From: Holdemanella biformis DSM 3989
GTDB lineage: Bacteria > Bacillota_I > Bacilli_A > Erysipelotrichales > Erysipelotrichaceae
Direction of reading: 5' to 3'
DNA length: 51,821 bases
Assembly: GCF_000156655.1 (NCBI RefSeq)
Contig: NZ_DS996841.1
Location: 67,818-119,638, forward strand
Shown here in pieces: positions 31,504 through 47,960 of the stretch (position 1 is its first letter; each line of letters starts with the position of its first letter). A program made the translations under genes and the position numbers. The notes beneath the pieces are model-generated. The model was not told the origin of the DNA. It made no database searches and saw nothing but the letters and a program-made list of their open reading frames with translations.

Positions 31504-31526
31504 ACGAAAAGCCCATCTGGGCTTTG
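31504..31526 (-). terminator. Terminator of the left PTS operon
   Basis: Minus strand AAAGCCC-AGAT-GGGCTTT followed by a short T run, which makes it a moderate terminator. Partial readthrough into the HAD-MATE pair is possible. Confidence 0.6.
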
Positions 31527-31534
31527 CTTTTTAA

Positions 31535-32599: not shown

Positions 32600-32600
32600 T

Positions 32601-33026
32601 TTACCACTCCTCATCCGATGAATCATCATCTGATTCTAGTTGCTTTTCAAATTTACCAATTTGAGTTTGACCAACCTCACAAGCCTTATTTGCGATTTCA
32701 ATTGCACTTGAACCCATATTACGCATCATAATACATTCAATCAACATGCCCAAATTTGTACCATAGACAACTTGGATCTTTTCATTTTCTAAAGCTTCCA
32801 TAACAGCCGTATTAAATGGAGATCCACTTAGTAAATCCGCAAACACAACAATTTCACCATCAAATTTACTTAATGCGTTATGCATATTTTCTTTCAATTC
32901 CGTTGCCGTATCTCCTTGTGGAAAATCAACAACTTCTACCCCTTCTAGACTTTGCATGATCAACTCTACACTTGAAGCAATGCCACTAGCAAAATGACCA
33001 TGGCCTGTAATAAGAATTCCTACCAT
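32601..33026 (-). CDS. PTS mannose-family EIIA component (left operon)
   Basis: A 141-residue cytoplasmic EIIA-Man protein carrying the phosphohistidine in GILITGHGHFASG, with His9 the likely site. It relays phosphate from HPr to EIIB. The FADLLSGSPFNTAVM block is typical of the family. The C-terminus is acidic (SDDDSSDEEW). Its start overlaps the end of the HAD gene by 7 bases. Being placed after SIS and HAD genes rather than beside EIIB is unusual. Confidence 0.93.
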   Translation of the reverse strand: MVGILITGHGHFASGIASSVELIMQSLEGVEVVDFPQGDTATELKENMHNALSKFDGEIVVFADLLSGSPFNTAVMEALENEKIQVVYGTNLGMLIECIMMRNMGSSAIEIANKACEVGQTQIGKFEKQLESDDDSSDEEW

Positions 33027-33652
33027 ATATCTTCCTCCATAATCTGTTTTAGTGAACTTATAATTAAGTTTGCGTCTGTCAAATCTTGATAAAGTTTACT
33101 ATTATATAATCCCATAACTTTTAGTCCTGCTTTTTTTGCAGCTTCAATTCCATACTCCGAATCTTCTACAACCCATATTTCATCTTTAGAAACACCGATT
33201 TGTTTACATGTATATTCATAAATTTCTGGATCTGGTTTTGTCCTTTTAAAATTTTCTCCACTCACAATATATTTAAAATAAGTTTCAATCTCACATTGTT
33301 TTAAAACATCTTCAATATTGTCCATTGGAGAAGATGAAGCAAGTGCCATCGTAATTTCGTTATTCTTTAAATATGCAAGTAATTCCAATACATAAGGCAT
33401 GCGTATTTTTAAATAATCCACTTTATGATTTTCAAAAAATGTTTTCTTTAAATCCTGTGCCCTTTCTACACTCATGTCTAATCGACTAGCGATAAATTCG
33501 TCTTCTGTCTTTCTAGAACAACCAATAAGAAAGAGAAGTTCTTCTTTTTCAATAAAAACTCCTCTATCTTTAAAAAACTGCATAAATAATTCTTGATATT
33601 TCACTTCACTATTTATTAGGACACCATCCATATCAAAAATAATAGCTTTCAT
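33020..33652 (-). CDS. HAD-family sugar phosphatase (left PTS operon)
   Basis: A 210-residue HAD hydrolase of the phosphoglucomutase-like branch: IIFDMDGVLINSE (nucleophile Asp), ALASSSPMDN (motif II), KRTKPDPEIYE (motif III Lys) and VVEDSEYGIEAAKKAGL (motif IV). It probably removes phosphate from a sugar phosphate made in the pathway. Its ATG shares a base with the stop of the SIS gene (TAATG), and its end overlaps EIIA, so it is embedded in the operon. Confidence 0.88.
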   Translation of the reverse strand: MKAIIFDMDGVLINSEVKYQELFMQFFKDRGVFIEKEELLFLIGCSRKTEDEFIASRLDMSVERAQDLKKTFFENHKVDYLKIRMPYVLELLAYLKNNEITMALASSSPMDNIEDVLKQCEIETYFKYIVSGENFKRTKPDPEIYEYTCKQIGVSKDEIWVVEDSEYGIEAAKKAGLKVMGLYNSKLYQDLTDANLIISSLKQIMEEDIW

Positions 33653-34737
33653 TAGTCTTTGTAGTGAGCTAAATTTTCATCAAATGGGTTGATAGCTGTA
33701 TCAATACCAATATCCTTAGCGCCTTTTGCGGCAACAAATTGGAATGGAACTGTAAACATCAATGGAGCCAAATATTTATTTGTCTTAACAGAGAATACAC
33801 AATCTCTAGGATCATTTCCTAAATCTTTACATGTGATAAAGTGAACACGATCTGTGTATTTTTTAAAGGATTTACTGAAATCTACACTGTGTTCAAATTC
33901 AGCTTCATCACTTCCAATAATACAAATGGTTTGTTTTTTAGAAATAGCCATTGTAGGGCCATGAGAATATTCTTCAATTTCATATCCCAATGCAGGAAGT
34001 CTTAACATTTCTCCAACTTTTAACTGTGCTTCAATCGCTGTCGCAAAATCAATACCATAGCCCAAGAAATATAAGCGATCACTATTTACAATTGTTGTGC
34101 GGTTACGATCGTACCAAGCTTCACTTTCATCAACTACAGTTTGGAATTGATCTACTAGCTTCTTAGTCTCATCCAAAGCTTTTTCATACTCATCATCACT
34201 CATTACGCCTTTTACATGAGCGCATTCAACAGCCCATAGATATACAGAAATAACAGATGTTGTATATCCTTTTGTTTCTGGTGGAGTCAATTCATCCCCA
34301 ACTAAAAGATGTACTTTTGTATCTACATATTTAGTAATTTCACTATTTAGATTCCCCGTGATTGCCAAAGTATGATAACCTTCTTGTTTTGCGTATTTCA
34401 TGACTTCACAAGTCGAAATAGATGTTCCAGATTGAGAAATACCAACATATAGAATTTCATCTTTCTTTAATAGTCCTGACCAATCTGCTTTTTCATAATT
34501 TTTAAATACAGTTGGATATTGATATTCTGCATCAATTCCTACTAGATGTTTGAAATAATAAGTTCCTAAAATAGATACATTATAAGATGTTCCCGAACCA
34601 AAGAAGATCACTTTTTTAATATTATTTTTTGTGAATACATCTACAAATGGTTTCACAAAAACATCTTTATTTTCAAAAACATATTTTAATCTTTCTGGTT
34701 GTTCTTTAATATATCCTAATACTGTTGGCTCTGCCAT
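33652..34737 (-). CDS. SIS-domain protein, deglycase/isomerase-like (left PTS operon)
   Basis: A 361-residue two-SIS-domain protein: FFGSGTSYNVSILGTYYF and VGISQSGTSISTCEVMKYA in the first half, and LGYGIDFATAIEAQLKVGE and EYSHGPTMAI in the second. These features match GlmS-isomerase and FrlB/GfrE-type enzymes that handle ketosamine or aminosugar 6-phosphates. ATG at 34737 with AAGGAGG 8 bases upstream; a longer frame to 34785 overlaps EIIB. The position after PTS genes suggests it acts on the imported phosphorylated sugar. Confidence 0.84.
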   Translation of the reverse strand: MAEPTVLGYIKEQPERLKYVFENKDVFVKPFVDVFTKNNIKKVIFFGSGTSYNVSILGTYYFKHLVGIDAEYQYPTVFKNYEKADWSGLLKKDEILYVGISQSGTSISTCEVMKYAKQEGYHTLAITGNLNSEITKYVDTKVHLLVGDELTPPETKGYTTSVISVYLWAVECAHVKGVMSDDEYEKALDETKKLVDQFQTVVDESEAWYDRNRTTIVNSDRLYFLGYGIDFATAIEAQLKVGEMLRLPALGYEIEEYSHGPTMAISKKQTICIIGSDEAEFEHSVDFSKSFKKYTDRVHFITCKDLGNDPRDCVFSVKTNKYLAPLMFTVPFQFVAAKGAKDIGIDTAINPFDENLAHYKD

Positions 34738-34750
34738 AATCGAATCCTCC

Positions 34751-35224
34751 TTAAAATTCTTTTGAAATGTCATCTTTTGACACATTTGGTGTTATTTGAT
34801 AATACATTGGAATATTGTGTTCTTTGATTTTTTTGAATGCAGCTGCCTCTTTTTCATTCACAAACATATTGTTACGAATCTGTTTAGCACCATCTTTTGT
34901 AGACATATTACCTACAGTAACATGATCAAATGTATAGCCATAATCTAACATTTCAGCAAGTGGTTCAGGTGAACGCACTAGAATCATAACGCGAATTCCT
35001 TCATCGATTTTACGAAGCAATTTCTCTGCAGCTTTCTTCGAATCAAAAATTGACAATTTACATCTTGGTGGAGTACCAAATTTCAAAGATACTTTACGAT
35101 TTTCATCATTCACGATTTCATTATCGACAATCAAAATTCGTTGTACATCAAACTGTGGAATCCAATAGCCACAAACTTGGCCATGAATCAAACGATCGTC
35201 CACACGTACTTCTACTATAGCCAT
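34751..35224 (-). CDS. PTS mannose-family EIIB component (left operon)
   Basis: A 157-residue EIIB-Man protein with the phosphohistidine motif VDDRLIHGQV (His14). The conserved later block VTVGNMSTKDGAKQIRNN is present. It takes phosphate from EIIA and donates it to the sugar moved by EIIC/EIID. AGGAGG before the ATG overlaps the natural end of the EIID gene (35234). Confidence 0.93.
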   Translation of the reverse strand: MAIVEVRVDDRLIHGQVCGYWIPQFDVQRILIVDNEIVNDENRKVSLKFGTPPRCKLSIFDSKKAAEKLLRKIDEGIRVMILVRSPEPLAEMLDYGYTFDHVTVGNMSTKDGAKQIRNNMFVNEKEAAAFKKIKEHNIPMYYQITPNVSKDDISKEF

Positions 35225-35233
35225 AATAACCTC

Positions 35234-36071
35234 CTATAGGGCAATAATGCCAAATACACCTAATACAAATCCAATCACTACGATTGCTGAAATAATCTTT
35301 GTGATTTTGATATTCCTTTTTAATAGCTGAATAAATACCTAATGTTGCAGCTAAAGGCAATAATTTAGGCATAATTTGATCTAAGTATTCTTGAATTACA
35401 ATTTTATTTCCTGAAATTGTGAATTCTAAAGGACATGATACAGTTACCCAGCTTGCGATCATACAACCAATGGCAGCCACACCAAGGATACCTGCACAAT
35501 ATGTAAACAATTGCATCTTTCCAGATTTTTCTAAGTCAATCAATAATTGATTTCCACTTGTATATCCAATCTTTAATCCATAATAACGAGTTAAGAATGT
35601 TGGAATGTTGAATAAAATTAATAGAATAAATGGAGCAATTGGATTTCCTGCTTTCGCAAAACCAATTGATAATGAACAAGCCAAGATTCTAAAGATACCC
35701 CAGAAGAATGTATCTCCAATACCACTTAATGGACCCATCAAACTAACTTTGATCGCATTGATAGAAGCTGGATCAAAATTAGGATCACGCTTTACGCTTT
35801 CTTCCATCGCAATTGAGATTCCCATAACGAATGGTGCTGGTGCAATTGTCATATTGAATGCTGCACTTTCACGAAGCATAGCTTGTTTTAAGCCTTCTTC
35901 ATCATCTTTATAAATTTTCTTTAAAATATGTTCAATACAATATAGATAAGCAAGACCTTCCATCTTTTCATAGTTGAATGATCCAAGTAAAGTAAATGAT
36001 CTCCAGAATACTTTTCTAAAATCTTTTTTTGTTATATTATTTTCAACACTAATTACATCATTTTTAGCCAT
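35234..36071 (-). CDS. PTS mannose-family EIID component with 3' frameshift
   Basis: Membrane component of the left PTS, with the EIID opening FRKVFWRSFTLLGSFNYEKM and the SLMGPLSGIGDTFFWG block. As written, the frame runs into 75 nt of EIIB with an implausible Cys/Tyr/Ser-rich tail. Shifting +1 at AAAAAGG (35315-35321) instead gives NIKITKIISAIVVIGFVLG and a TAG at 35234-35236, just before the EIIB SD. That tail matches the paralogue at 41227-42045 (LLKKKNIK...). So one base is gained, or two lost, relative to an intact gene of about 278 residues. It could be a real mutation, phase variation at the homopolymer, a read error or programmed frameshifting. Confidence 0.85.
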
Positions 36072-36074
36072 GTT

Positions 36075-36860
36075 CTAGTCCTCCCATTCATCATCCAAAG
36101 CTGAAGCACTTTGAACAACTGTTCCTTGGTTTGAGCGAATTTGATAAATAATCATTGCGATTGCGAATGCGATCAATGTGATACCAACCATAGTGATGGC
36201 TTGACCTGCATATGCTGCAAGAACAAATCCAATAATTAAGTATGGTGTTAAATCTTTTTCGAAGATAATGTTCAATAATAACGCAAATCCTAATGCAGGA
36301 AGCAATGCAGCTACACCGTTTAATCCAGCATTTGCCCATGCAGGAAGTCCATCTGCGATAGCTTGGATTACGCCATGTCCAAAATACATAGCTACAAATG
36401 CAACTAATGAATATAATGCGAATGTTGCCCAGTTACAGAAATGATGAGTCAATGCGATTGACTTAAAGTTACCTGCTTCAATATCATTATCTACTTTGTG
36501 CATCAATCCAGAATAAGAAGCAATTAGTAACGTGTTAATAAACTGCATAACAACTGCAACTGGAACACCAAATAGAATAGCTGTTTCAGCACCTTTGCCA
36601 GTCATAATCGCAACAGCTGCACCAATTGTTCCACCAGTACCAATATCAAGTTGAGCTGTAGGACCAATACCAGTTGCTCCCATCCATAAAAGTTGTAATT
36701 CTGCACCAACCTTCAATCCTTTCGTAACATCACCTAAAGCTAAACCAACTAAAAATCCAGTAACAACAGGTTCACGAAATTTCGCTTCACCTAACCAGTT
36801 TCCATCCAAAACGGTTAGACCAGCAATCAAGCCGATTAATAACGCCTGAATAAATGTCAT
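36075..36860 (-). CDS. PTS mannose-family EIIC component (left operon)
   Basis: A 261-residue membrane permease subunit, first gene of the left PTS operon. The EIIC opening FIQALLIGLIAGLTVLDGNW and the conserved GVPVAVVMQFINTLLIASYS block are clear; most of the chain is hydrophobic. ATG at 36860 with AAGGAGGAG upstream; a longer frame to 36896 runs through the operator region. Transcription begins from a sigma-A promoter covered by GGTATAC boxes. Confidence 0.93.
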   Translation of the reverse strand: MTFIQALLIGLIAGLTVLDGNWLGEAKFREPVVTGFLVGLALGDVTKGLKVGAELQLLWMGATGIGPTAQLDIGTGGTIGAAVAIMTGKGAETAILFGVPVAVVMQFINTLLIASYSGLMHKVDNDIEAGNFKSIALTHHFCNWATFALYSLVAFVAMYFGHGVIQAIADGLPAWANAGLNGVAALLPALGFALLLNIIFEKDLTPYLIIGFVLAAYAGQAITMVGITLIAFAIAMIIYQIRSNQGTVVQSASALDDEWED

Positions 36861-36883
36861 ATTTCTCTCCTCCTTAATGACAT

Positions 36884-36972
36884 TGGTATATATCAAATAC
36901 CATTTCCTGATTTATTTATACCATGTATGTATACCAATATCAATAATTTCTTTGGCGCATATGTATACCAAT
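36884..36972. promoter_or_regulatory. GGTATAC operator boxes of the left PTS operon
   Basis: Three sites: an inverted repeat TGGTAT-N7-ATACCA (36884-36902); TTGGTATACATA read on the minus strand at 36926-36937, inside the promoter spacer; and a second TTGGTATACATA at 36960-36971. The same TTGGTATAC core precedes the UTRA-GntR genes, so the GntR protein is the likely binder. This is inference from the shared core. Confidence 0.6.
36915..36943 (-). promoter_or_regulatory. Sigma-A promoter of the left PTS operon
   Basis: Minus strand TTGATA, 17-base spacer, TATAAA. An operator box lies in the spacer, which suits repression by steric block. Confidence 0.65.
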
Positions 36973-36984
36973 TCGATATTAGTC

Positions 36985-37020
36985 GCAAAAAAAGAGGTAT
37001 CCATCAATTAGACACCTCTA
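36985..37020 (-). terminator. Terminator of the UTRA-GntR operon
   Basis: Minus strand AGAGGT and ACCTCT outer arms, partly extended by inner pairing, followed by TTTTTTT. Confidence 0.85.
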
Positions 37021-37043
37021 TTCTAATATACTTATATACCAAT

Positions 37044-37775
37044 TTATTGACTTCTAAACTTCAAGCCTTGGGTTACATATTTAAATGATGAATACTTTGG
37101 ATTATGATATGAAATTGTATACTCCACCAATTCACGATTCTCATCATAACCATGATAATCAAAAATAAATACATTTCTTTCAATATCCATATATTTTCGA
37201 TACTCTATCGGCAAAGAATCAATGCGCAAATAAGAAACCATAGTTCTAGGTCGATGTCCTAAATCATCCATATAGTCATATAATGAAAAGCTTTCAAAAT
37301 CAAAACGCTCTGCATCCTCAAATTTAGAACAAGGAATATATACCTTCTGTAATGCATAAGGCTCATCATTGATATAAGATAAACGAATGATTTCATATAT
37401 ATGATCTTCATTTGGAAAAACTTCCTTTAATTTATCTTCAGGCTTTATCTTTGTCAAAGATAGTGTTTTACGACTCGATTTCATTCCCTTTTGACGAATC
37501 TGTGCACTCAATGAATAAACACCGGCACGACCTAATTCTAGTTTTTCTTCAACATATGGAACTTTCGCAACATAGTTTCCACTGCCTCTTTTTGTTTTAA
37601 TAACCCCTTCTTCTTGTAGTTTTTTTAATGCATTTCGCACCGTCATTCGATTGATTCCATATTGTTCGGACATCTCTCTTTCACTCACTAAACGATCTCC
37701 GACTTGAAGCTGTCCATCCTGAATTTTCTTTTTGATGCTGTCCATCAGTTGTACATAGATTGGTTTTTCACTCAT
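37044..37775 (-). CDS. GntR-family regulator, HutC subfamily (HTH + UTRA)
   Basis: A 243-residue regulator with an N-terminal winged helix (PIYVQLMDSIKKKIQDGQL; recognition helix in YGINRMTVRNALKKL; wing TKRGSGNYV) and a C-terminal UTRA ligand-binding domain (about residues 95-235). HutC proteins are usually repressors released by a sugar phosphate or amino-sugar effector. It is encoded just upstream of the left PTS operon and probably binds the GGTATAC boxes there. Its ATG overlaps the end of the stand-alone UTRA gene by 4 bases, so the two are made together. Confidence 0.9.
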   Translation of the reverse strand: MSEKPIYVQLMDSIKKKIQDGQLQVGDRLVSEREMSEQYGINRMTVRNALKKLQEEGVIKTKRGSGNYVAKVPYVEEKLELGRAGVYSLSAQIRQKGMKSSRKTLSLTKIKPEDKLKEVFPNEDHIYEIIRLSYINDEPYALQKVYIPCSKFEDAERFDFESFSLYDYMDDLGHRPRTMVSYLRIDSLPIEYRKYMDIERNVFIFDYHGYDENRELVEYTISYHNPKYSSFKYVTQGLKFRSQ

Positions 37776-38293
37776 ATTTCTGACACACTCCTATATCTAT
37801 AAAAGCTTGGTAGACTTGACATTTCAAAATATTCAAAAAGCTCATGATCATTTTTTGAAACATAAGAAGTTCCACGATTTAATAAAATCTCACATTTTCC
37901 TTCTAATCCTAATAATCTTTTTTCTTCCCTTTTTGCTTCCACCAATAATAATTCTTCTTGTGTTTCATAAACCTGTATACCATATTCCTTTAATAAAAGG
38001 CCATAAAACGATGTATTCCCAAGATCATATTCTTCAAGTCCTTCCACCTTCGAATATTCAATATATGTTTTCTCAATCGATTGAGCAATACCTTCTACAT
38101 ATCGAACACGACATAAATAGAAGAGTTTAGTAGCCAACGGCACATTTAATTGTTTCGACAAATAGTAATTGGATTCAATCACTTTCTTTTCAATAATACG
38201 ATTTTCTAAAGTAAGCCCTTGTTCACGAATCGCTTCTGTAACCGACATAAAACAATCTATGTCGCGAAGTACATATATATTATCCTTATCCAT
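37772..38293 (-). CDS. Stand-alone UTRA (effector-binding) protein without DNA-binding domain
   Basis: A 173-residue protein that aligns in layout with a HutC-type UTRA domain: VIESNYYLSKQLNVPLATKL, then LCRVRYVEGIAQSIEKTYIEY and FYGLLLKEYGIQVYETQEEL. No winged helix is present. It is not simply a 5'-truncated regulator gene: it has its own ATG with GGGAGA upstream, a promoter with two GGTATAC boxes just before it, and a fully open frame. The downstream GntR gene overlaps by 4 bases. It may be a decoy or co-sensor that dimerises with GntR, or bind ligand alone; function is inferred. Confidence 0.75.
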   Translation of the reverse strand: MDKDNIYVLRDIDCFMSVTEAIREQGLTLENRIIEKKVIESNYYLSKQLNVPLATKLFYLCRVRYVEGIAQSIEKTYIEYSKVEGLEEYDLGNTSFYGLLLKEYGIQVYETQEELLLVEAKREEKRLLGLEGKCEILLNRGTSYVSKNDHELFEYFEMSSLPSFYRYRSVSEI

Positions 38294-38380: not shown

Positions 38381-38407
38381 ACCCAAAAAACAACATTTGT
38401 ATAGCAC

Positions 38408-38436
38408 AATAAAAGAAGCAACGTTACTTTGCTTCT
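38408..38436 (-). terminator. First terminator of the right PTS operon
   Basis: Minus strand AGAAGCAA and TTGCTTCT perfect arms around AGTAACG, followed by TTTATTG. It overlaps the stop codon of the HAD gene. Confidence 0.75.
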
Positions 38437-39083
38437 AATATATCTATAACCCTTTTCAAATTTTCACATTGATATTGGACATATTTCATATCTTCATCAT
38501 TGAATTGTACTTGATCAGGAATCCAAACCCTTTTCATATTCGCATTATAAGCAGCACGAATCCCATTCTTACTATCTTCTAGTACGATACAATTTTCAGG
38601 CTTTACTCCCATCTTTTTCGCACACGCCAAAAATAAATCGGGAGCTGGCTTTGACGCATATTCATCTTGTGATGAAAGCATCAAATCCGCTCTAAAATCA
38701 AACCCGCAGTTATTCACTAAACGCTTAATGTGCGTAACACTTGAGCTTGACGCAATACAAATACTATAGTTATGCGCTTTTAAATAATCATACAATTCTT
38801 TCAAGCCATATTTATTGGCAGAGCCTGGAATCGCAAAGCGTTTCTCGTAATAAGAAACAAATTCATCATCCGCAATTTCCAACATATCCTCTAACCATGG
38901 ATAGTCCTTATGGTAAATCGAATAATCGAAATAACTTGTTCCAAGCATGCCAAGTAAATATTCTCTTGGAAAGTAATGATCGTGTTTTTTACAAATGTCT
39001 TCAAACACATCGATATATAGGGTTTCCGTATCAAACATCAACCCGTCCATATCAAAAATAACAGTATTAATCGTCTCCATCAT
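38424..39083 (-). CDS. HAD-family sugar phosphatase (right PTS operon)
   Basis: A 219-residue HAD hydrolase (VIFDMDGLMFDTETLY nucleophile; IASSSSVTHIK motif II; SKPAPDLFL motif III; VLEDSKNGIRAAYNANM motif IV). It is the last gene of the sigma-54-controlled operon, so it probably dephosphorylates a product or by-product of the SIS enzymes. Its start (ATG at 39083 or 39080) overlaps the SIS gene end by about 17 bases and lacks a separate SD, suggesting translational coupling. Confidence 0.86.
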   Translation of the reverse strand: MMETINTVIFDMDGLMFDTETLYIDVFEDICKKHDHYFPREYLLGMLGTSYFDYSIYHKDYPWLEDMLEIADDEFVSYYEKRFAIPGSANKYGLKELYDYLKAHNYSICIASSSSVTHIKRLVNNCGFDFRADLMLSSQDEYASKPAPDLFLACAKKMGVKPENCIVLEDSKNGIRAAYNANMKRVWIPDQVQFNDEDMKYVQYQCENLKRVIDILEAK

Positions 39084-40146
39084 AATTCACAAAATTCTCC
39101 GTTTTTGCGGCTGCAATAGCCTTAAATTCTTTCAATAATGGATGTTGATAAATAGAATGTAAATCGTTTGAAATAATAAAGCTTAATAGTTGTACAAATG
39201 GTAAATAAACAATTGGTGAAAGTTCACTTGATACAGTACCACTCAAGCTTAAAACATGATCATCATCCGCTAATCCAGGATTATTTGAAATCAAATAAGC
39301 ACGCTCACTTACTTTGCGTGTAGCCTTATATACTTGTTCTACACGATGACTTGCGCCATCGTTTCCATCAAAGAAAATCACATTGTATTGTGGCGTTAAT
39401 TGTAAATTCGGACCATGAATATATTCTTCAATTTCGTAACAGCAACTTGGAATATGAATGGTTTCCCCCATTTTTAATGCACTTTCAAGTGCTGTTCCAT
39501 AATTGGCACCAGCTCCACAACTATAAACCCAAGACATAGATGAGAATTCTTTATAGTGTAATTCAATAAACTCAGTCGCTTTCTCAATCATTTCCTCATT
39601 TAAATTGACAGCTTTTTTTAACTCTTCTAAATATTCAGTCTTACCAGAATACGTAATTGCGAATAAATCTAAAAATAACGCTAAAGTTGAAACACCCTTT
39701 GTGACATAGCCAACTAATTCTTCGCCAACACCATATTCAATCACAACATCCGCAACATCTTTTACATCGCTATTTATATTTCCTGTTAAACAAATAGCTC
39801 TACATTGTTTTTTCTTAATAATTTTTAATGCTTCAATTGCATTTGTACTTAAACCACTCTGTGTAACCACTAAGACTAAGTCGTTTTCTTTAATATCATT
39901 TTCATAATACGTAAATGTATATGGAGTAATGATTCTAACTTCTAAACCACTCACTTTTTCCACAAAACTTCGAGCACAATAACATGCATTATGACTCGAT
40001 CCAGAAGCCACAAGCAAAATACGTTTGATTTCTTTTTGTTGCACTTCCTTCATCAATGGTTCAACCAATGCAGTGTATTGTTCAATATTTGTTCTTAATA
40101 CGCCTGGTGTTTCTTTCACATAATCAAGCATTGTTAATTTTTCCAT
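39067..40146 (-). CDS. SIS-domain protein, glucoselysine/fructoselysine-6-P deglycase-like
   Basis: A 359-residue two-SIS enzyme: LLVASGSSHNACYCARSFVE and VVTQSGLSTNAIEALKII in the first site, SCGAGANYGTALESALKMGE and EYIHGPNLQL in the second. It fits the GfrE/GlmS-isomerase-like group, which cleaves or isomerises ketosamine 6-phosphates. Its operon partner at 40200-41198 is the FrlB-like deglycase, so a two-enzyme Gfr-like scheme is plausible. GGGGAGG precedes the ATG. A hairpin at 40172-40194 separates it from the upstream gene. Confidence 0.83.
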   Translation of the reverse strand: MEKLTMLDYVKETPGVLRTNIEQYTALVEPLMKEVQQKEIKRILLVASGSSHNACYCARSFVEKVSGLEVRIITPYTFTYYENDIKENDLVLVVTQSGLSTNAIEALKIIKKKQCRAICLTGNINSDVKDVADVVIEYGVGEELVGYVTKGVSTLALFLDLFAITYSGKTEYLEELKKAVNLNEEMIEKATEFIELHYKEFSSMSWVYSCGAGANYGTALESALKMGETIHIPSCCYEIEEYIHGPNLQLTPQYNVIFFDGNDGASHRVEQVYKATRKVSERAYLISNNPGLADDDHVLSLSGTVSSELSPIVYLPFVQLLSFIISNDLHSIYQHPLLKEFKAIAAAKTENFVNYDGDD

Positions 40147-40171
40147 ATGTACCTCCCCTAAACAACATATA

Positions 40172-40194
40172 AAAGGTGGAATGGTTCCACCTTT
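40172..40194 (-). other. Intercistronic hairpin between the two SIS genes
   Basis: AAAGGTGGAA and TTCCACCTTT perfect 10-bp arms around a 3-base loop, with only four T after it on the minus strand. It may be a partial terminator or an mRNA-stabilising/processing stem that sets higher expression of the upstream genes. Confidence 0.6.
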
Positions 40195-40199
40195 ATATT

Positions 40200-41198
40200 T
40201 TAGTATTCTAATCTTCTGTAATAACGACGGATTTCCATTGGGTGACGAGTTTCGATTTCCATGTGAACGTCAATTCTGTTGTTTACAGCATGCATTACAT
40301 GGTGAGACAAGTGTTTACGATATTTTTCGCTAATACCCTTTAATTCGTAATCTTTAGAATCGATAATTGTGTAGTTTGCACAAATTCTTGGAATGAAGTT
40401 AGCAACACGTTCAGATAATGGACGTTGAGCATCTTCACCAATATAAATTGTAACTGGAGTTTCTTTAGTTACGATTTCGAACATACCGTGGAAGAATTCA
40501 TTTGATGTGATTGATTTAGTTTTTAACCATAATTGTTCTTCCCAGTAGCACATTGCGTATGAGTAAGTTGCTCCCCATTGGTTACCAGCACCTACGAAGT
40601 AGTGCATTTCATCATTCCAGTGTTTTTTAGCGAATTCAATTGCGAATGGTTCAGCTTGCTTTTCAACTTCTACTAAATCTTGTGCTAAGTATTTGTCGAA
40701 TTCTGCATACATATCTTCGTAGTCCTCGAATTCACCATTGTTGAACATGAAACGGTCAGCAACCATGAAGAATTTTAATTGTTCGTTAATTGGATAAGAA
40801 ATCTTGTAGTCTGCTAAGTCCAATAAGATAGCTTCTTTAGCATCAACAAATGAGATAACTGTAGCGCCAACTTCTGCTTTGATTTTTTTGATAGCATCAA
40901 CAACTTCTTTAGTATTTCCAGTTACAGAAGAGATAATAACAACTGTATCTTTAGTAATACGTTTGTTTCCTGTAGTTAAGTATTCTGCAGCATTTTCTGC
41001 CCAAGTTTCAATAGCACTCATCTCTTTCATGTGTACTGTAGCTTGCATAGCACTTGCCCAAGTACCACCAACACCTAACCAGCAGATGTTTGAATATCCA
41101 CGTTCGCAGATTTCATCAACGATTTCGTTGATTTGAGGGCGTAGAGCCAATGCTCCATTTACGCTATCGATTTTTTCTTGTTCATTAAATTTAATCAT
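40200..41198 (-). CDS. FrlB/GfrF-like SIS-domain deglycase
   Basis: A 332-residue SIS protein of the fructoselysine-6-phosphate deglycase type. The first site contains CWLGVGGTWASAMQATVHMK and VIISSVTGNTKEVVDAIKK; the second contains FVGAGNQWGATYSYAMCYWE and TSNEFFHGMFE. The C-terminal HPMEIRRYYRRLEY is a strong likeness to FrlB-family ends. It would split an Amadori phosphate into an amino acid and glucose 6-phosphate. The ATG at 41198 is chosen because GGAGG lies 8 bases upstream; the first ATG at 41213 has none. It follows EIID in the operon. Confidence 0.86.
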   Translation of the reverse strand: MIKFNEQEKIDSVNGALALRPQINEIVDEICERGYSNICWLGVGGTWASAMQATVHMKEMSAIETWAENAAEYLTTGNKRITKDTVVIISSVTGNTKEVVDAIKKIKAEVGATVISFVDAKEAILLDLADYKISYPINEQLKFFMVADRFMFNNGEFEDYEDMYAEFDKYLAQDLVEVEKQAEPFAIEFAKKHWNDEMHYFVGAGNQWGATYSYAMCYWEEQLWLKTKSITSNEFFHGMFEIVTKETPVTIYIGEDAQRPLSERVANFIPRICANYTIIDSKDYELKGISEKYRKHLSHHVMHAVNNRIDVHMEIETRHPMEIRRYYRRLEY

Positions 41199-41226
41199 TT
41201 TCTTTTCCTCCATTTATTTAAATTTA

Positions 41227-42045
41227 TTAACAACCTAAGATACCAAAGAATGAGCCAATCAATCCGATTGCGACACACAATAACAACAATGTAGTTGTCT
41301 TAATATTTTTCTTTTTCAATAAGTAGTAAACCAATAATGTGAATAATAATGGCATTAAACCAGGCATGATATTGTTGAATACATCATTTAATGTAGTTGC
41401 TTCATCACCAGAACCAAATGCCAATGGGAATTTGATTGAAACGTTTTCAGCAGTCATACCACCAACAACCATCAATCCTAAAACGCTTGCTGCATAAGTA
41501 AGTTTTGACATCAATCCATTTTCCTGGATCTTAGCCAAGAATCCACTACCTAATTTATAACCAGCGTTCATTAAGTAATAACGTAATCCTTGAGCAGGGA
41601 TGTTGAAGATCAATAAGAATAAGATAGGTCCTAAGATATTTCCTTGGTTCGCTAATGATAGACCAACACCAGTAGCGATGATACGTAATGTTCCCCAGAT
41701 GAATGAGTCACCAATACCAGCTAAAGGTCCCATCAATGAAACCTTAACGCTATTGATACTTTCTGTATCGAAGTTAGAATCATTTGCGTTACTTTCTTCC
41801 ATAGCAGCACTGATACCAAGAATCAATGTTGACAATTGAGGTGTTGTATTGAAGAATTCCAAGTGACGTTGCATAGCTGCAATTTGGTCTTCTTTATTTG
41901 AATACAATTTTTTGATTACTGGTAACATACAGTAGCAGTATGCCATGTTCATCTGTCTTTCATAGTTCCAGTCCCATTCCATTCCGAATGAACGCCAAAA
42001 TACTTGATTTAATTCTTTTTTTGTTAATTTATTAGAAGTCGTCAT
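41227..42045 (-). CDS. PTS mannose-family EIID component (right operon)
   Basis: A 272-residue EIID protein (LNQVFWRSFGMEWDWNYERQ opening; SLMGPLAGIGDSFIWG block) with C-terminal helices ending FFGILGC. Together with EIIC it forms the sugar channel. It is intact, unlike its paralogue at 35234. Its start overlaps EIIC by 14 bases, and an AGGAGG lies 11 bases upstream of the ATG. Confidence 0.94.
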   Translation of the reverse strand: MTTSNKLTKKELNQVFWRSFGMEWDWNYERQMNMAYCYCMLPVIKKLYSNKEDQIAAMQRHLEFFNTTPQLSTLILGISAAMEESNANDSNFDTESINSVKVSLMGPLAGIGDSFIWGTLRIIATGVGLSLANQGNILGPILFLLIFNIPAQGLRYYLMNAGYKLGSGFLAKIQENGLMSKLTYAASVLGLMVVGGMTAENVSIKFPLAFGSGDEATTLNDVFNNIMPGLMPLLFTLLVYYLLKKKNIKTTTLLLLCVAIGLIGSFFGILGC

Positions 42046-42808
42046 CTTCGTCTAATCCTCCTTCTGTAGCTGTTTGAGCTGAGTTGCTACGTAATTGAGT
42101 TAATACGATGGCAATAATAGCTCCAAAAATTGCAATTGCAGTTACTGGAATTCCTAAGTATACGCTTAATGCGAATCCTAAGAAGAAGAAACATGCAACT
42201 TCTTTGTCCATGATCATCATCAACAATAAGCCAAATCCAATTGCAGGTAATAAGCCCATTGTAATTTGTAAACCATTTGAGATCCATTCAGGAATTACAT
42301 TTAATAAAGCCTGTACAGCAGGTCCACCTGCATAGTATCCACATGCTACGATAACACCGATAATCAAGTTAACACCAAAGAATCCACCTAAGAAGTGCAT
42401 TCTCGCAACGCCAGCCATATTTCCTTCAGCTGCATATGCATCTGCTTTGTGAACAAATGGAGGTAAAATAAATACCATTCCAACGTTCTTTGCGATTAAA
42501 ACCAATGAAGCAACTGGTAAACCAACAGTCAATGCAGTTTCTGGTCCAGCTCCTGTTGTGATTGTGAAAGCTGTTCCTAATACGGTTCCTGAAATCATTT
42601 CAGGTGGAATACTAGCTCCGATTGAGAAAGCTCCCATAAATGCTAATTCTAATGTTGCCGCTAAAGTAACACCTGTTGGGATATCACCAAGTACAACGCC
42701 TGTCAAAGCTCCCATAACCAATGGTCTTGACAACAAGCTTGTACCGAACAAATATTCAGCATTTCCAAGCATTGCTACCAAGCCAAGTAAAATTGCTTGT
42801 AATAACAT
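42032..42808 (-). CDS. PTS mannose-family EIIC component (right operon)
   Basis: A 258-residue membrane permease subunit. The opening LLQAILLGLVAMLGNAEYLF and the glycine-rich GVVLGDIPTGVTLAATLELAF block fit EIIC-Man/Sor. Most of the chain is hydrophobic, ending in an acidic tail (GLDEDDDF). An AGGAGGAG SD precedes the ATG, 10 bases after the EIIB stop. Confidence 0.94.
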   Translation of the reverse strand: MLLQAILLGLVAMLGNAEYLFGTSLLSRPLVMGALTGVVLGDIPTGVTLAATLELAFMGAFSIGASIPPEMISGTVLGTAFTITTGAGPETALTVGLPVASLVLIAKNVGMVFILPPFVHKADAYAAEGNMAGVARMHFLGGFFGVNLIIGVIVACGYYAGGPAVQALLNVIPEWISNGLQITMGLLPAIGFGLLLMMIMDKEVACFFFLGFALSVYLGIPVTAIAIFGAIIAIVLTQLRSNSAQTATEGGLDEDDDF

Positions 42809-42818
42809 ATTTCTCCTC

Positions 42819-43286
42819 CTATAATACTTTCTCTACGTTTACTGGACTATCTTCTGGAACCATCTGAATTGTTACATCCACACCTGATTCACATAATCCT
42901 TTTAAAATTGTTTCTTCTGCTGGAGTAATATTCATTGCCTTTGAAATATTACGAGTTTCAGCAGTAGCCTTAGTACCACCAAGATTTAATTTATTGATGT
43001 TGCACTCTTTACACAATCTTTCAGCATCCTTAATCGATTCAACTACAGTCAATAATTTGTATTTGTCTGTAACACCACTGTTGATCGCATTTACTGCATC
43101 ATCCATATTTTTAATAACTAATTTAACACCACTTGGTTTTGCCAACTTAATTGATGTTTTTCTTAAATCATCTTTCATAACTGCATCGCACGCAATTAAG
43201 ATACAATCTGCTTCAACTGCATTTTTCCAAGAAAAAGCAACTTGACCATGTAACAATCTGTGATCCACTCTTAATAATTTGATCAT
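42819..43286 (-). CDS. PTS mannose-family EIIB component (right operon)
   Basis: A 155-residue EIIB-Man/Sor protein with the phosphohistidine site VDHRLLHGQVAFSW (His13), and the later block LNLGGTKATAETRNISKAM. It transfers phosphate from EIIA to the incoming sugar. AGGAGGAG precedes the ATG, in operon with EIIA 15 bases upstream. Confidence 0.94.
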   Translation of the reverse strand: MIKLLRVDHRLLHGQVAFSWKNAVEADCILIACDAVMKDDLRKTSIKLAKPSGVKLVIKNMDDAVNAINSGVTDKYKLLTVVESIKDAERLCKECNINKLNLGGTKATAETRNISKAMNITPAEETILKGLCESGVDVTIQMVPEDSPVNVEKVL

Positions 43287-43301
43287 TTTTTTCTCCTCCT
43301 A

Positions 43302-43715
43302 TTAGAAATCTTCATCATCTTCGCTTGTCATACCATTCATAACTGTCATTCCCTCTTTAGCGGCTTCAATCAAATCGTTCGCATCTGCTAATTCAAGATT
43401 TTGGTCCAAGCTTTTCATCACTACATCTAATGCCAATCCCATGTTCATTCCTGAAAAAATCATTACATTATCCAATACTGCAAGTTTAGATAAAGCTGTG
43501 TGAATACTTCCACCTTTGATATCACACAAGATTACAATTTGTTCTTCGCTTTCTTTTGCTTCTTTCAAAACTTCTTGATAAAAATCTTCAGGATTTTGTC
43601 CAGGAAGCAAGCTATATGTTTCTACATCCTTAGCTAAATCTCCAACGATCATAGAAACTGAATCTTTCATTCCTTTAGATAATCCTCCATGTGAGGCAAA
43701 TATTACTCTGCTCAT
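43302..43715 (-). CDS. PTS mannose-family EIIA component (right operon)
   Basis: A 137-residue EIIA-Man protein, first gene of the sigma-54-dependent operon. The phosphohistidine is His9 in VIFASHGGLSKGM; ILCDIKGGSIHTALSKL is the conserved later block. The acidic C-terminus (SEDDEDF) resembles the other EIIA here. AAAGGAGA precedes the ATG, 43 bases downstream of a -24/-12 promoter. Confidence 0.94.
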   Translation of the reverse strand: MSRVIFASHGGLSKGMKDSVSMIVGDLAKDVETYSLLPGQNPEDFYQEVLKEAKESEEQIVILCDIKGGSIHTALSKLAVLDNVMIFSGMNMGLALDVVMKSLDQNLELADANDLIEAAKEGMTVMNGMTSEDDEDF

Positions 43716-43757
43716 TCATCTTTCTCCTTTCTGTATTACGTCGTTCACTTATATACA

Positions 43758-43773
43758 AGCAAATATTATGCCA
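43758..43773 (-). promoter_or_regulatory. Sigma-54 (-24/-12) promoter of the right PTS operon
   Basis: Minus strand TGGCATAATATTTGCT: GG and GC are exactly 10 bases apart, as in TGGCAC-N5-TTGCW, with 5 of 6 left and 4 of 5 right consensus bases. It faces EIIA 43 bases away and sits directly beside the genes for a sigma-54 activator and rpoN. Confidence 0.88.
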
Positions 43774-43787
43774 TAGAAATAAGCTTA

Positions 43788-43816
43788 CAAAAAAAAGATG
43801 AGTTTCCCCATCTTTA
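43788..43816 (-). terminator. Terminator of the LevR-like activator gene
   Basis: Minus strand AGATGGG-GAAA-CTCATCT (one G-U pair) followed by eight T, directly after the activator stop and before the sigma-54 promoter. Confidence 0.9.
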
Positions 43817-46516
43817 CTAGTTATTCTTCACATAATTATAAATATGAATCATTTCCTCTGTAGGAATATCTACACCATAGAAATCTTCTACTTGCTTAAA
43901 CGCCTTCTTAACATAGTCCACAAAATCTTTGTGTTCATTTAAGAAATCCAAGCTTGGATCATACTCAGCATTTCTTGAAACAACAAGTCTTTCGATCAAA
44001 CAACAAATGTGTACGTACAATCCAAAACAAGTTCGATTGCTGAAACGAACACCAACATACTTTTGTAAAACATCAATCGCATTGGCAACCTGCTCTAATA
44101 GTTTTGCCGGATTTAATATCGTTAGTGCATTCATAATATTACTCAATGAGAAATTATGCAGAATATTTTTATCAAACAAAGACAGCTGTTCTTCATTCAT
44201 ATAATCTTTGAAGTATTGATTGAAATCTCCAAATGTATCTTCAATAATCAAATCTTCAATACCCACAAATGGAATATCCTCCATATTTGGATCTAACGTT
44301 CCAAGTACACATAAAACATCATATTCTTCAAATACATTGTTCTTTTTACCTAATTCAATCAATTCCGAATAATTCAACGTCTTCACATCTAAATTGATTC
44401 CATCTGGAAAAGATTGCTCCAACATCGACTTTAATTTCTTGGCCGTACCCAATCCACTTGCGCAAGAACATAGAATGACTGGCTGTTTTTGTTGATGCTT
44501 TTCAATATGATACGCAAAATTGACACGGAAAGCATCAATCGTTTTTTGTAGTATGCTCTCCATCTCTACATTATTACGAATTCCATTTCCAATTTCTAAA
44601 GCGATTGGAGTACTCACATTGTTGATAATTCCAATATTCGCATTTTCTATATGCAAACCTTTATAAATATCTTCCAAACTACCCATATCCACTAAAAGAT
44701 ACAATTCTTTGACCTTGCCAATATGATCCAAATACCGATTCAGTTTCTCAATCATTGTGGCCGTATCAATATATAAAGGCATATCTAGCGCATCAAAAAT
44801 ATATTGTCCTAAAAAACGATTGGCAGCATCCGCAATACTTGAAGCCGTAGAAAAACCATGCGATAGAACAACAGCTGCTTTTTGAGAAAGCCTTGAATCT
44901 TTTTGTACATTATAAACATAGAAGATAAATGTACAAATAATAATGGAATACATATCCATTTCTAGATAGGACTTTAAATACGTACAAATTTCTAGAGATA
45001 CATTGGTCGCTCTAAAAAATTCTTCTTGCAACAATTGATATAAATCATCACACTCTTCTTCATGTTTTAAAAACCAGCTTCTTAAATCATGATATTCATG
45101 ATGAATCTCATCTAAATAAGATGCGATAGCTAACGTTTCATTATTTGTAATTTTTAATCCATACCGCGATTCAATCAAGTTAAAGATATGCTGCACACCA
45201 CGATTATAATAATCGACCTGACTCGATTCTTTCTTTCTAAAGATCAAGTTATCAAAATATTTTTGAACATAATTCTTTTCTTTTGCCATAAAATCCGACA
45301 AGCTTGTATGTTCCTCTTTATATTTTCGATAACACGCCAACAAGCTATCATTTAATTGAAGAATTTCTTTTGTACCATTATAGTACCCCTGCAAATCATC
45401 CACATATATATATTCATCATCATCCAAGACCGTTTTTTGATTCGCATAAACCTGCTGTAAAAGATCTTTAGGCAAACTGTCCAAATGAATCACTAATTCG
45501 TCATTGACCTTATCAAATAAAGAATTGATACAACAAGACTGCACACTACTCTTTAATTGACCAATATTACCTGGCATCTTACTTTGTAACAGCGCATTAT
45601 ACACTTTGCTACTCATCTTGATCTGACAATCTAAACGTTTTTCTTCCCGACTAAAAATATCATACAACAACTCAATACGCTCTTGCGTACCTCTTTGTTC
45701 AAGACTAGGAATGATGATTGTCATGGGAATACGTCGCATTAATGTTTTTAACAGTACTTTATTCGGATTTTCTGTAGTCGCAAATACAATACGAACATTA
45801 GACTTATACCACTTTTCATTATCACCCACACGATGATAAATACCTTGATCCATAAACAAGAACAACTTTTCCTGGCATTCAGCCTTTAGTTCGTGGACCT
45901 CATCTAAAAATAAAACACCATTGTTAGCTAACGCAATCAGACCTTCATTGTCTTTTTCAGCTCCTGTAAAAGCACCTTTAACATGACCAAATAAGTTGGC
46001 CGTTAATAATTCAGGGTTGTTGGCATATTCACTACAATTGACCTGTACAAACTGTCCATCTTTTGAAATGACGCCCTGATTTTTTGCCCACTCATACGTC
46101 AACTTTGCAATTAAAGACTTACCTGTTCCTGTAGGCCCATAAAGTAACATAGGTAAACCATTAGGGGGATACGAAATAGTAGCTTTACATTGTTTAACAG
46201 TTTGAGCCAAAGAATGATTCATGCCCACTAGTTTTTCAAAATCCTTCTTTTCCTGATTTGACAATAAATCATCTAAACTTGCATATACACAACCCTTAAA
46301 AGGAATTGCCTTTTCTTTTAAATACTCGACAGATATGAAATAAAACGGCTTTGATTCAATGCGAATCAATTTATTTTCTTTTACTAATTTATTTAATACA
46401 ACAGACACCTGCGAACGACTTATCTTTAGATTTTCACTAATCAAGGCAACACTAGTCTTATCAAAATCTTCCTTGTCGCAGCATGCTAAAATATATGCTA
46501 ATATTTTTTCTATCAT
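43817..46516 (-). CDS. LevR-like sigma-54-dependent PTS-responsive activator
   Basis: An 899-residue activator. An N-terminal winged helix (about 1-65) precedes a sigma-54 AAA+ domain with Walker A GPTGTGKS (127-134), GAFTGA (181-186, the sigma-54 contact) and Walker B VLFLDE (201-206). PRD1 (about 435-540), an EIIA-Man-like domain with a candidate phosphohistidine (His553 in VVLSHGFSTASS), an EIIB-like domain with Cys683/685 in ILCSCASGLGTA, and PRD2 with His836 in LYVHICCLIERL complete the layout of LevR and Salmonella GfrR. It should sense PTS phosphorylation and open the promoter at 43758. The ATG at 46516 has GGAGGG upstream; a longer frame to 46621 overlaps rpoN. Confidence 0.94.
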   Translation of the reverse strand: MIEKILAYILACCDKEDFDKTSVALISENLKISRSQVSVVLNKLVKENKLIRIESKPFYFISVEYLKEKAIPFKGCVYASLDDLLSNQEKKDFEKLVGMNHSLAQTVKQCKATISYPPNGLPMLLYGPTGTGKSLIAKLTYEWAKNQGVISKDGQFVQVNCSEYANNPELLTANLFGHVKGAFTGAEKDNEGLIALANNGVLFLDEVHELKAECQEKLFLFMDQGIYHRVGDNEKWYKSNVRIVFATTENPNKVLLKTLMRRIPMTIIIPSLEQRGTQERIELLYDIFSREEKRLDCQIKMSSKVYNALLQSKMPGNIGQLKSSVQSCCINSLFDKVNDELVIHLDSLPKDLLQQVYANQKTVLDDDEYIYVDDLQGYYNGTKEILQLNDSLLACYRKYKEEHTSLSDFMAKEKNYVQKYFDNLIFRKKESSQVDYYNRGVQHIFNLIESRYGLKITNNETLAIASYLDEIHHEYHDLRSWFLKHEEECDDLYQLLQEEFFRATNVSLEICTYLKSYLEMDMYSIIICTFIFYVYNVQKDSRLSQKAAVVLSHGFSTASSIADAANRFLGQYIFDALDMPLYIDTATMIEKLNRYLDHIGKVKELYLLVDMGSLEDIYKGLHIENANIGIINNVSTPIALEIGNGIRNNVEMESILQKTIDAFRVNFAYHIEKHQQKQPVILCSCASGLGTAKKLKSMLEQSFPDGINLDVKTLNYSELIELGKKNNVFEEYDVLCVLGTLDPNMEDIPFVGIEDLIIEDTFGDFNQYFKDYMNEEQLSLFDKNILHNFSLSNIMNALTILNPAKLLEQVANAIDVLQKYVGVRFSNRTCFGLYVHICCLIERLVVSRNAEYDPSLDFLNEHKDFVDYVKKAFKQVEDFYGVDIPTEEMIHIYNYVKNN

Positions 46517-46540
46517 GTTACCCTCCACTTTTTTTGAATT

Positions 46541-46546
46541 ATTATA
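46541..46546 (-). promoter_or_regulatory. -10 element of the LevR-like gene
   Basis: Minus strand TATAAT 25 bases before the ATG; no clear -35. It lies beside a 16-bp palindrome. Confidence 0.5.
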
Positions 46547-46551
46547 CCATA

Positions 46552-46567
46552 ATATGTTATAACATAT
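46552..46567. promoter_or_regulatory. 16-bp palindrome between activator and rpoN genes
   Basis: ATATGTTATAACATAT is a perfect palindrome located in the divergent promoter gap. It overlaps the probable extended -10 of rpoN (TGTTATAAC) and the region upstream of the activator -10. A shared operator is plausible. Confidence 0.55.
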
Positions 46568-46573
46568 ATACAT

Positions 46574-47794
46574 ATGAAACAAGATTTGATTTATACACAC
46601 ACCTACAAACAGACATTGCATATGACAACAGGTTTAAAGTCCCATCTTGAAATATTAAGTAAAGATCGACAGACTTTATCCGATCTTTTATATAATGTCA
46701 GTCAAAACAATCCCTTTTTAGAATACACTCCCAGTCAAGATATCCAACAATATCTTGAAACCGGCATATCCAATAAACCGAGTCTAAAGGATGAACTTTA
46801 TTTGCAGCTGCATACAAGCACCAAAAAATACAATGAACCCATTGCCAATTATATTATTGAATCCTTAGATAGTCATGGTTTCTTTGATCAAGATATCCAT
46901 ACTGTCCTATCGGACTTAAAATGCACTAAAGCCCAATTTGAAGAAACACTCTCTTTCATTCAAACCTTTGAACCTATTGGTGTGGCTGCTAAAAACAGTA
47001 TTGATTCTTTAATGATTCAATTAAAAACAAAAGGCTATACAGTCGCATACACGATTTTAAAGAATTATTCAAAAGAACTTGAAGAAAAAGATTTCTATAC
47101 AATTTCTGAATCTTTAGATATACCTTATGAAACTGTATTTGATGAATTAGCACACATGCAAGAGTGCAATCCATTTCCTTGCAGTGAATATGACACAGAA
47201 AGTACGACAAATTTAGCTTTACCTGAATTCACAATTGAAATTGATGAAGATCAATTAAAAATCATCCCCAAAGAAATGGGAAATCTATCGCTTCATTGTG
47301 AAGAAGTAAAATTGTCAAAAGAAGCTAAAAAATATTTAAATGAAGCTAAATTTTATATAGATAGTATCAACCGGCGAAATAAAACCATTCTTTTACTCGC
47401 AAATATCTTAATTACCCATCAAAAGAATTATTTTCTATTTCAAGATGATTTAAAAGAATGCACACTTAAAGAAATTGCTGAAGAATCAGGCTACTCGATT
47501 TCAACCGTTTCTAGGACTCTGAGTGATAAATATTATGAATTTAATGATCATATGTATCCTGTAAAAGATTTATTTATTTCAAAGACACACAAAGGAAGCA
47601 GTAAAGACTCGATTCAAAAAGCCATTCAATTATTGATTGAAGTGGAAAATCCAGAAAATCCTCTACAAGATGAAGAAATTGTAGAAGAACTTAAAAATAT
47701 GGAACTCTACGCATCCAGAAGAACCATATCAAAATATCGAAAGGAATTAAATATTCCCAATTCAAAACAAAGAAAAAAGGCGAGACTCTACTAA
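46574..47794 (+). CDS. rpoN: RNA polymerase sigma-54 factor
   Basis: A 406-residue sigma-54, slightly short for the family. The activator-contact region I is at the N-terminus (MTTGLKSHLEILSKDRQTL), the helix-turn-helix in LKEIAEESGYSISTVSRTL, and the RpoN box near residues 378-392 (ASRRTISKYRKELNIPN), which recognises the -24 element. The ATG at 46574 has no SD and lies only a few bases after a likely -10, suggesting a leaderless mRNA. It is divergent from the LevR-like gene, forming one compact sigma-54 regulatory unit. Confidence 0.95.
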   Translation: MKQDLIYTHTYKQTLHMTTGLKSHLEILSKDRQTLSDLLYNVSQNNPFLEYTPSQDIQQYLETGISNKPSLKDELYLQLHTSTKKYNEPIANYIIESLDSHGFFDQDIHTVLSDLKCTKAQFEETLSFIQTFEPIGVAAKNSIDSLMIQLKTKGYTVAYTILKNYSKELEEKDFYTISESLDIPYETVFDELAHMQECNPFPCSEYDTESTTNLALPEFTIEIDEDQLKIIPKEMGNLSLHCEEVKLSKEAKKYLNEAKFYIDSINRRNKTILLLANILITHQKNYFLFQDDLKECTLKEIAEESGYSISTVSRTLSDKYYEFNDHMYPVKDLFISKTHKGSSKDSIQKAIQLLIEVENPENPLQDEEIVEELKNMELYASRRTISKYRKELNIPNSKQRKKARLY

Positions 47795-47802
47795 ATCTCG
47801 CC
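47774..47802 (-). terminator. Terminator facing the minus strand after rpoN
   Basis: GGCGAGA and TCTCGCC perfect arms. The T run (six T then C) follows only in the minus direction, so it ends a leftward transcript from the 47.8-48.0 kb gap rather than rpoN, though the stem may also slow rpoN transcription. Confidence 0.6.
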
Positions 47803-47816
47803 CCTTACCTTGTTCT

Positions 47817-47960
47817 CTACAAACTTTTTAAATAGTTTTCAACATTTAAATACTGAATAGTATCCATTTCTGTATTTTCTCCACGATAAATCAATAACAT
47901 GAAAAAGAGGCAACATTACATTACTTCTATAGTTTCACATACAATTTTTTCAACTTCCAT
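47817..47960 (-). pseudogene. Possible small RNA or gene remnant
   Basis: A minus-strand frame reads MEVEKIVCETIEVM, then TAA (47916-47918), then continues in the same frame to another stop at 47817-47819, with an ATG at 47900 starting MLLIYRGENTEMDTIQYLN. The first ATG has no SD and lies only 4 bases after a TATAAT. The parts may be a gene remnant, or the short transcript (about 180 nt from a promoter at 47964 to the terminator at 47774) may be non-coding. I cannot assign a function. Confidence 0.3.

Follow-up and report, generated by a model that had tools for sequence, protein, structure and literature searches.

A sigma-54 cassette with its own LevR-type activator and a putative Gfr-like PTS operon in Holdemanella biformis, and its relatives in the Erysipelotrichaceae

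The sigma-54 module of Holdemanella biformis and its probable regulon

We describe here a sigma-54 module in a 51,821-nt stretch of the genome of Holdemanella biformis DSM 3989 (contig NZ_DS996841.1, positions 67,818 to 119,638; hereafter the window, whose numbering is used throughout). The module consists of rpoN, a divergently transcribed bacterial enhancer-binding protein (bEBP) of the LevR type, a consensus -24/-12 promoter and a contiguous seven-gene operon encoding a mannose-family phosphotransferase system (PTS), two SIS proteins and a HAD protein (Table 1). All these parts had been proposed in an original prediction made from the DNA letters alone and were confirmed in place. Judged by its sequence, the module is likely to be a self-contained cassette that drives an Amadori-type PTS operon and belongs to a class spread through the family Erysipelotrichaceae. 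The window RpoN has the activator-interacting, core-binding and DNA-binding domains and an intact RpoN box (SRRTISKYRK), with a TIGR02395 score of 264 bits, slightly under the cut-off of 277.

The original prediction had further held that the sigma factor is packed together with its target, possibly its main or only regulon, and a scan of the genome for other sigma-54 promoters and activators agrees with this. The genome encodes a single RpoN. Two proteins match PF00158, and one of them is the activator, the only true bEBP; the other was rejected as a second bEBP, since it is a ClpB that has two AAA domains and lacks GAFTGA. The pattern TGGYAY-N5-TTGC is found 27 times in the 2.5-Mb genome, compared with 15 times for the pattern read backwards, and a promoter match alone therefore means little. 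Within long open reading frames (ORFs) lie 23 of the 27 matches, and TGGCATAATATTTGCT is the only one with an intergenic position immediately ahead of a start codon and with a T as the next base, giving a proper TTGCT. RpoN, true bEBP and well-placed promoter thus each occur once, which gives good support to a dedicated regulon; this operon is probably the main, if not the only, sigma-54 regulon of the genome. It speaks against this exclusivity that the genome is a draft of 44 contigs, 97.7% complete, where a further sigma-54 target could sit in a gap.

Pairing of rpoN with bEBPs and promoter dialects in the family

By the gene neighbourhoods compared, such a sigma-54 cassette is not peculiar to this genome but is the rule across the family, a pattern missed by the original prediction. 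Among 196 Erysipelotrichaceae genomes we counted 53 rpoN copies in 37 genomes, and for 49 of these copies a bEBP gene lies no more than about 9 kb away on the same contig, mostly in divergent orientation, where chance would give, by a rough estimate, near 0.02 per copy. The four exceptions are a truncated rpoN (G012; G and L numbers are our labels for genomes and loci), two copies on contigs of less than 4 kb and a copy whose contig ends about 1 kb away. Twelve genomes carry two to five rpoN copies, and in the one with five (G128) each copy has its own bEBP. A mannose-family PTS adjoins nearly all rpoN/bEBP pairs. RpoN and bEBP distances are correlated (Mantel r 0.68; 0 of 5000 permutations above 0.21), and the bEBP motif is GAFTGA or GAYTGA at 21:23, a split that follows the RpoN lineages. 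Co-evolution of bEBP-RpoN contacts is not claimed, the best-associated RpoN columns lying outside Region I. Enlarging the sample to 273 genomes added rpoN copies of one genus paired with a shorter, non-LevR bEBP; these six copies (L185-L189, L192) are convergent to a bEBP of 590-632 aa and have no PTS genes, and the PTS link is therefore not universal. In whole-class and phylum samples rpoN was too infrequent for a contrast with sigma-54-rich bacteria, sigma-54 being rare in this phylum. A survey from 2025 reports more than one rpoN in 5% of organisms and calls the Erysipelotrichia poor in sigma-54 and bEBPs (PMC12316311).

A promoter ahead of the first PTS gene was identified in 40 modules, and its sequence varies together with RpoN. 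Across 30 distinct canonical modules 19 RpoN columns are invariant, and the window module is canonical in RpoN as well as in its promoter. The -24 GG is changed to GC in L128 (TTGCCACG) and L143 (TTGCCATG), the only two modules that lack an equivalent of window R383, having Ser and Gln there, respectively. R383 is invariant in all 30 canonical modules and is the equivalent of E. coli R456; R455 and R456 are required for -24 binding (PMC7175178). The RpoNs of L128 and L143 share 26% identity, and the closest relatives of each are canonical RpoNs, which makes two separate origins of the change probable. Further dialects are TTGGCGC in L144 and L159, with T384R and K387A/D in RpoN, ATGCG at -12 in L139, L162 and L173, found in both the PTS and the rpoN promoter and accompanied by Ala/Gln at helix-turn-helix (HTH) position 309, and TTTC at -12 in L164 and L175, with T315I. 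Two genomes (G128, G147) each hold more than one dialect. Invariants of the RpoN box are broken in 4/4 modules with a changed -24 element and in 1/35 others (Fisher p 6e-5, or 5e-4 once one related copy is dropped), the exception being L164, where K387N occurs although -24 is canonical. The number of columns found solely in the GG>GC pair does not exceed background (5 vs 5.1); what carries the covariation argument is the loss of a residue that is otherwise invariant and known as a contact.

In 13 of the 40 modules (L126, L127, L135, L144, L147, L154, L155, L156, L159, L163, L174, L175, L143) the -24 element and the T-run before -12 double as the 3' arm and U-tract of a terminator-like hairpin that ends the activator gene. 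Its stem has 6-9 bp and is mostly matched by at most 1% of shuffles (for example AGCGTGC..GCACGCTTTTTGC in L163), and in L144 and L159 both arms change together. Promoter and terminator thus seem to be fused in these modules, and separate in the window. Ten loci (L125, L134, L139, L146, L154, L156, L162, L163, L173, L193) have a -24/-12 promoter directly upstream of rpoN, suggesting autoregulation, whereas a scan upstream of the window rpoN gave none. The motif GTGTCGAA/TGTCGAAA upstream of the promoter in 14/39 modules is a candidate activator-binding site; it is not present in the window, whose promoter yielded no activator-binding site; the TGTCGAA motif ahead of -24 is a feature of other modules.

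We infer private specificity from these data with caution: the Erysipelotrichaceae could naturally possess several sigma-54 systems that are orthogonal to one another, as mobile cassettes in which each rpoN has a bEBP, a PTS operon and a promoter dialect to itself and works in the same cell as others without cross-talk, a reading that we rate at somewhat less than an even chance. Several points weigh against it. The covariation was noticed after the fact and comprises few independent events, both rpoN and the bEBP gene are frameshifted in L143, one of only two GC modules, the terminator overlap may impose a second constraint on the promoter sequence, and the Mantel correlation is partly shared ancestry. 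One might hence ascribe the dialects of the relatives to drift or to the overlapping terminator instead of co-evolution with RpoN, given that promoter and hairpin share sequence in those 13 modules, among them L143, L144 and L159, and that L143 looks decayed. This seems unlikely to us, since L128, whose genes are intact and which lacks such a stem, shows GC together with the R>S exchange all the same, since R383 is constant in the 30 canonical modules and R455 and R456 of E. coli are needed for -24 binding (PMC7175178), and since the three ATGCG modules carry their variant in both promoters.

Organization, control and likely substrate of the window module

The longest ORF of the activator (43817-46621, 934 aa) overlaps rpoN, and a start preceded by a ribosome-binding site (GGAGGGTAAC-ATG) lies at 46516. 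Its domains follow in the order HTH, AAA+ with GAFTGA, PRD1, EIIA-like, EIIB-like and PRD2, of which HTH and PRD1 are assigned by position only. Walker A and B motifs, GAFTGA, EIIA-like His588, EIIB-like Cys720 and PRD2 His871 (numbering of the 934-aa ORF) are present, as expected for a LevR-like bEBP. The DagR model matches it over its full length with 469 bits, below the equivalog cut-off of 1400, and it is 97% identical to the activator of Holdemanella porci. A TATAAT-like box between activator and rpoN is a candidate promoter for the activator. The hairpin behind the activator gene lies between its stop codon and the -24/-12 promoter, which is correctly spaced and located 44 nt ahead of EIIA; four relatives (L122, L123, L131, L148) have a near-identical promoter at the same position. 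The seven genes of the operon (EIIA-EIIB-EIIC-EIID-SIS-SIS-HAD) are all on the minus strand with intergenic gaps of -17 to +53 nt, and no anomaly in GC content marks the cassette.

Table 1. Features of the sigma-54 module (window coordinates)
Feature	Position	Strand	Support
rpoN, sigma-54 factor, 406 aa	46574..47794	+	PF00309, PF04963, PF04552 (all three sigma-54 domains)
Divergent intergenic region activator/rpoN, 57 nt	46517..46573	.	Sequence
LevR-type bEBP, 899 aa from likely start 46516	43817..46516	-	PF00158, PF00874
Terminator-like hairpin with T-run, 3' of activator gene	43789..43815	-	AAAGATGGGGAAACTCATCTTTTTTTT
Putative sigma-54 promoter TGGCATAATATTTGCT	43758..43773	-	Fits TGGCAY-N5-TTGCT
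EIIA, mannose family, His present	43302..43715	-	PF03610
EIIB, mannose/sorbose family	42819..43286	-	PF03830
EIIC	42032..42808	-	PF03609
EIID	41227..42045	-	PF03613
SIS1, GfrF/FrlB-like deglycase, 337 aa	40200..41213	-	Structure matches; E. faecium gfr-type SIS
SIS2, GlmS-isomerase-like, possible glucoselysine-6-P deglycase, 359 aa	39067..40146	-	2AML; E. faecium SIS
HAD-family sugar-phosphatase-like protein, 219 aa	38424..39083	-	PF13419

Directly downstream (30832-37775) lies a second PTS operon (EIIC, EIID, EIIB, SIS, HAD, EIIA, SIS, HAD), which the original prediction had missed and which has a GntR/UTRA regulator in place of sigma-54, and a UTRA-only gene without a DNA-binding part is found at 37772-38293. 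The C-terminus of the EIID of this second operon (about 35148-35330) is out of frame, with the expected ending in the neighbouring frame; by its sequence this is a frameshift or a sequencing error.

Activators of the LevR type are switched on via HPr~P at the His of the EIIA-like domain and off via EIIB~P at the PRD2 His, and Salmonella GfrR has a Tyr at the HPr-target site (PMC4987338). The window activator keeps His at both positions, 588 and 871, and thus, unlike GfrR, the HPr target, a difference that the original prediction had missed. The LevR-type His/Cys residues are conserved in 43/43 readable activators of the family, and an HPr gene is present in the genome. With both His kept and HPr encoded, we predict dual control by HPr~P and EIIB~P, so that the operon would respond to its substrate and to the general PTS state, unlike the situation with GfrR. 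From this phosphorylation logic and the enzyme relatives described below we infer the following scheme. RpoN from the divergent gene would load RNA polymerase on the single -24/-12 promoter ahead of EIIA, and the polymerase would stay locked until the adjoining LevR-type AAA+ activator remodels it. To be active, the activator would require HPr~P at its EIIA-like His588; EIIB~P from the same operon, acting on PRD2 His871, would keep it inhibited until the phosphate is drained by the substrate. The operon would then import and phosphorylate an Amadori-type glycosylamine, most likely fructoselysine and perhaps also glucoselysine; SIS1 would cleave the 6-phosphate, a second substrate may be cleaved by SIS2, and HAD may serve to lower accumulated sugar phosphates. 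The module would belong to a family-wide class of cassettes that carry a sigma-54 along with a bEBP and a PTS operon of its own, some cassettes having co-diverged away from the standard promoter.

The operon has the Gfr gene set, EIIA to EIID with two SIS genes, and the Gfr type of regulation, a sigma-54 promoter with a LevR-type regulator. SIS1 aligns end-to-end with 2A3N (192.9 bits), which we take to be a Salmonella gfr-locus protein, with 8GLR (188 bits) and with FrlB 3EUA. It shares 59% identity with an SIS of an E. faecium gfr-type operon. A Gfr-like function as originally predicted therefore holds in part: PTS and SIS1 are close to that operon, but SIS2 is more distant, with only 35% identity (264 aa) to the other E. 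faecium SIS, which counts against the assignment, and its best match among solved structures is 2AML (137.6 bits). Fructoselysine is our best guess from these relationships, and glucoselysine is possible. The solved relatives of HAD are small-molecule (sugar or nucleotide) phosphatases, and a role in relieving phosphosugar build-up is a guess. HAD had been taken for a variation of this locus, and its recurrence in the family and in a plasmid copy of the operon in E. faecium had been missed; across the family, SIS1 is found more consistently than SIS2 and HAD, which are optional. The cassette might be real and yet serve another amino sugar or glycosylamine (glucosaminate, a glucosamine-type compound or fructose-asparagine), the SIS pair being a deaminase/isomerase and not Gfr deglycases. 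SIS2 fits GlmS isomerase and NagB-II models better than FrlB and is structurally closest to a generic Listeria-type SIS, the best full-length model of the activator is DagR, and both SIS proteins stay far under the FrlB equivalog cut-off (62 and 46 bits vs 430, with a model of the E. coli-type FrlB). We nevertheless regard this as doubtful in view of the end-to-end alignments of SIS1 and its identity to an SIS from an operon with the gfr gene set; moreover, DgaE/DgaF-type genes are absent here, whereas they are present in a cassette of Lacticaseibacillus paracasei.

Mobility and relation to known systems

A conjugative plasmid of E. faecium from chicken faeces (NZ_CP137463.1; L195, 7498-12791) carries the same genes in the same order, and its operon body is 90.7% identical in DNA to window positions 38979-43703. 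Its HAD differs (30% identity to that of the window), and the operon adjoins a bile-salt hydrolase gene and insertion sequence elements. In H. porci the cassette matches window positions 38400-47949 at 94.8%, while the flanks differ. It follows that the operon body has been transferred across family borders and that the regulator part can be detached from it. The E. faecium copy lacks rpoN, LevR and the -24/-12 promoter, which argues against a private sigma factor being needed everywhere. Cassettes of rpoN, LevR and mannose-family PTS are also found on plasmids of Latilactobacillus sakei, L. curvatus (conjugative) and Lacticaseibacillus paracasei, where DgaE and an aldolase are included, and on a 592-kb Aerococcus replicon.

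A close known counterpart is gfrABCDEF of Salmonella with its regulator GfrR (PMC4987338, PMC12675984), which shares the mannose-family PTS, two SIS proteins, LevR-type activator and sigma-54 promoter with the window. The window operon adds HAD, and the HPr-target residue is Tyr in GfrR and His588 here, predicting glucose-type control for the window. In Salmonella rpoN lies elsewhere and is global, while here it lies beside the operon. That the window RpoN is likewise an ordinary global regulator merely adjoining one of several targets would agree with the many bEBPs served by sigma-54 in most bacteria and with the 27 loose promoter matches, but it is strongly disfavoured, and in our estimate very improbable, given the single true bEBP, the 23 matches inside ORFs and the relatives, in which bEBP number tracks rpoN copy number and the genes are located together.

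Plasmid p4 of E. faecium (NZ_CP085910.1) shares a LevR gene, EIIA-D and two SIS genes with the window (identities of 59% for SIS1, 60% for EIIB and 62% for EIID) and has the promoter TTGGCACG-N4-TTGC. It differs by having no rpoN on the plasmid, a reversed SIS order, no HAD and an activator that is only 31% identical. The gut commensal Faecalibacterium prausnitzii has a seven-gene fructoselysine PTS operon with a GfrF-type deglycase and, like the window, one gene without a Salmonella counterpart; it lacks gfrE and has other regulators, and no rpoN is reported (PMC12136445). In Lactobacillus plantarum and Pediococcus rpoN is linked to a mannose-family PTS (PMC3162934), though with one per genome and for mannose, compared with a Gfr-like operon here and up to five cassettes per genome in the family. 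Several RpoNs per cell, each with a particular bEBP, are known from Cereibacter sphaeroides (RpoN1-4), where such RpoN-specific bEBPs are called exceptional (PMC11999139); in the Erysipelotrichaceae, by contrast, RpoN and bEBP adjoin the target operon and the pattern is family-wide. We found no report in the literature of a family-wide set of cassette-bound, diverging sigma-54s, and nothing on sigma-54 in the Erysipelotrichaceae beyond the survey mentioned above (PMC12316311). Linkage of rpoN to a PTS and RpoN-specific bEBPs are already known from Lactobacillus and C. sphaeroides, respectively. As far as sequence comparison can tell, the window holds a Gfr-like operon under sigma-54/LevR control, in a self-contained form that has rarely been noted, and the new part is the family-wide cassette pattern with its apparent promoter-RpoN covariation.

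Sigma-54 is usually taught as one global factor common to many activators. A family that repeatedly bundles it with one activator and one sugar operon, in up to five copies, presents the sigma factor as a local cassette part. Because RpoN-box and HTH variants occur naturally together with changed -24/-12 elements, sigma-54 specificity can be tested directly, and the dialect variants would supply ready-made orthogonal switches. For H. biformis itself, the operon would add Holdemanella to the likely gut consumers of dietary Amadori products, the heat-damaged food sugars such as fructoselysine.

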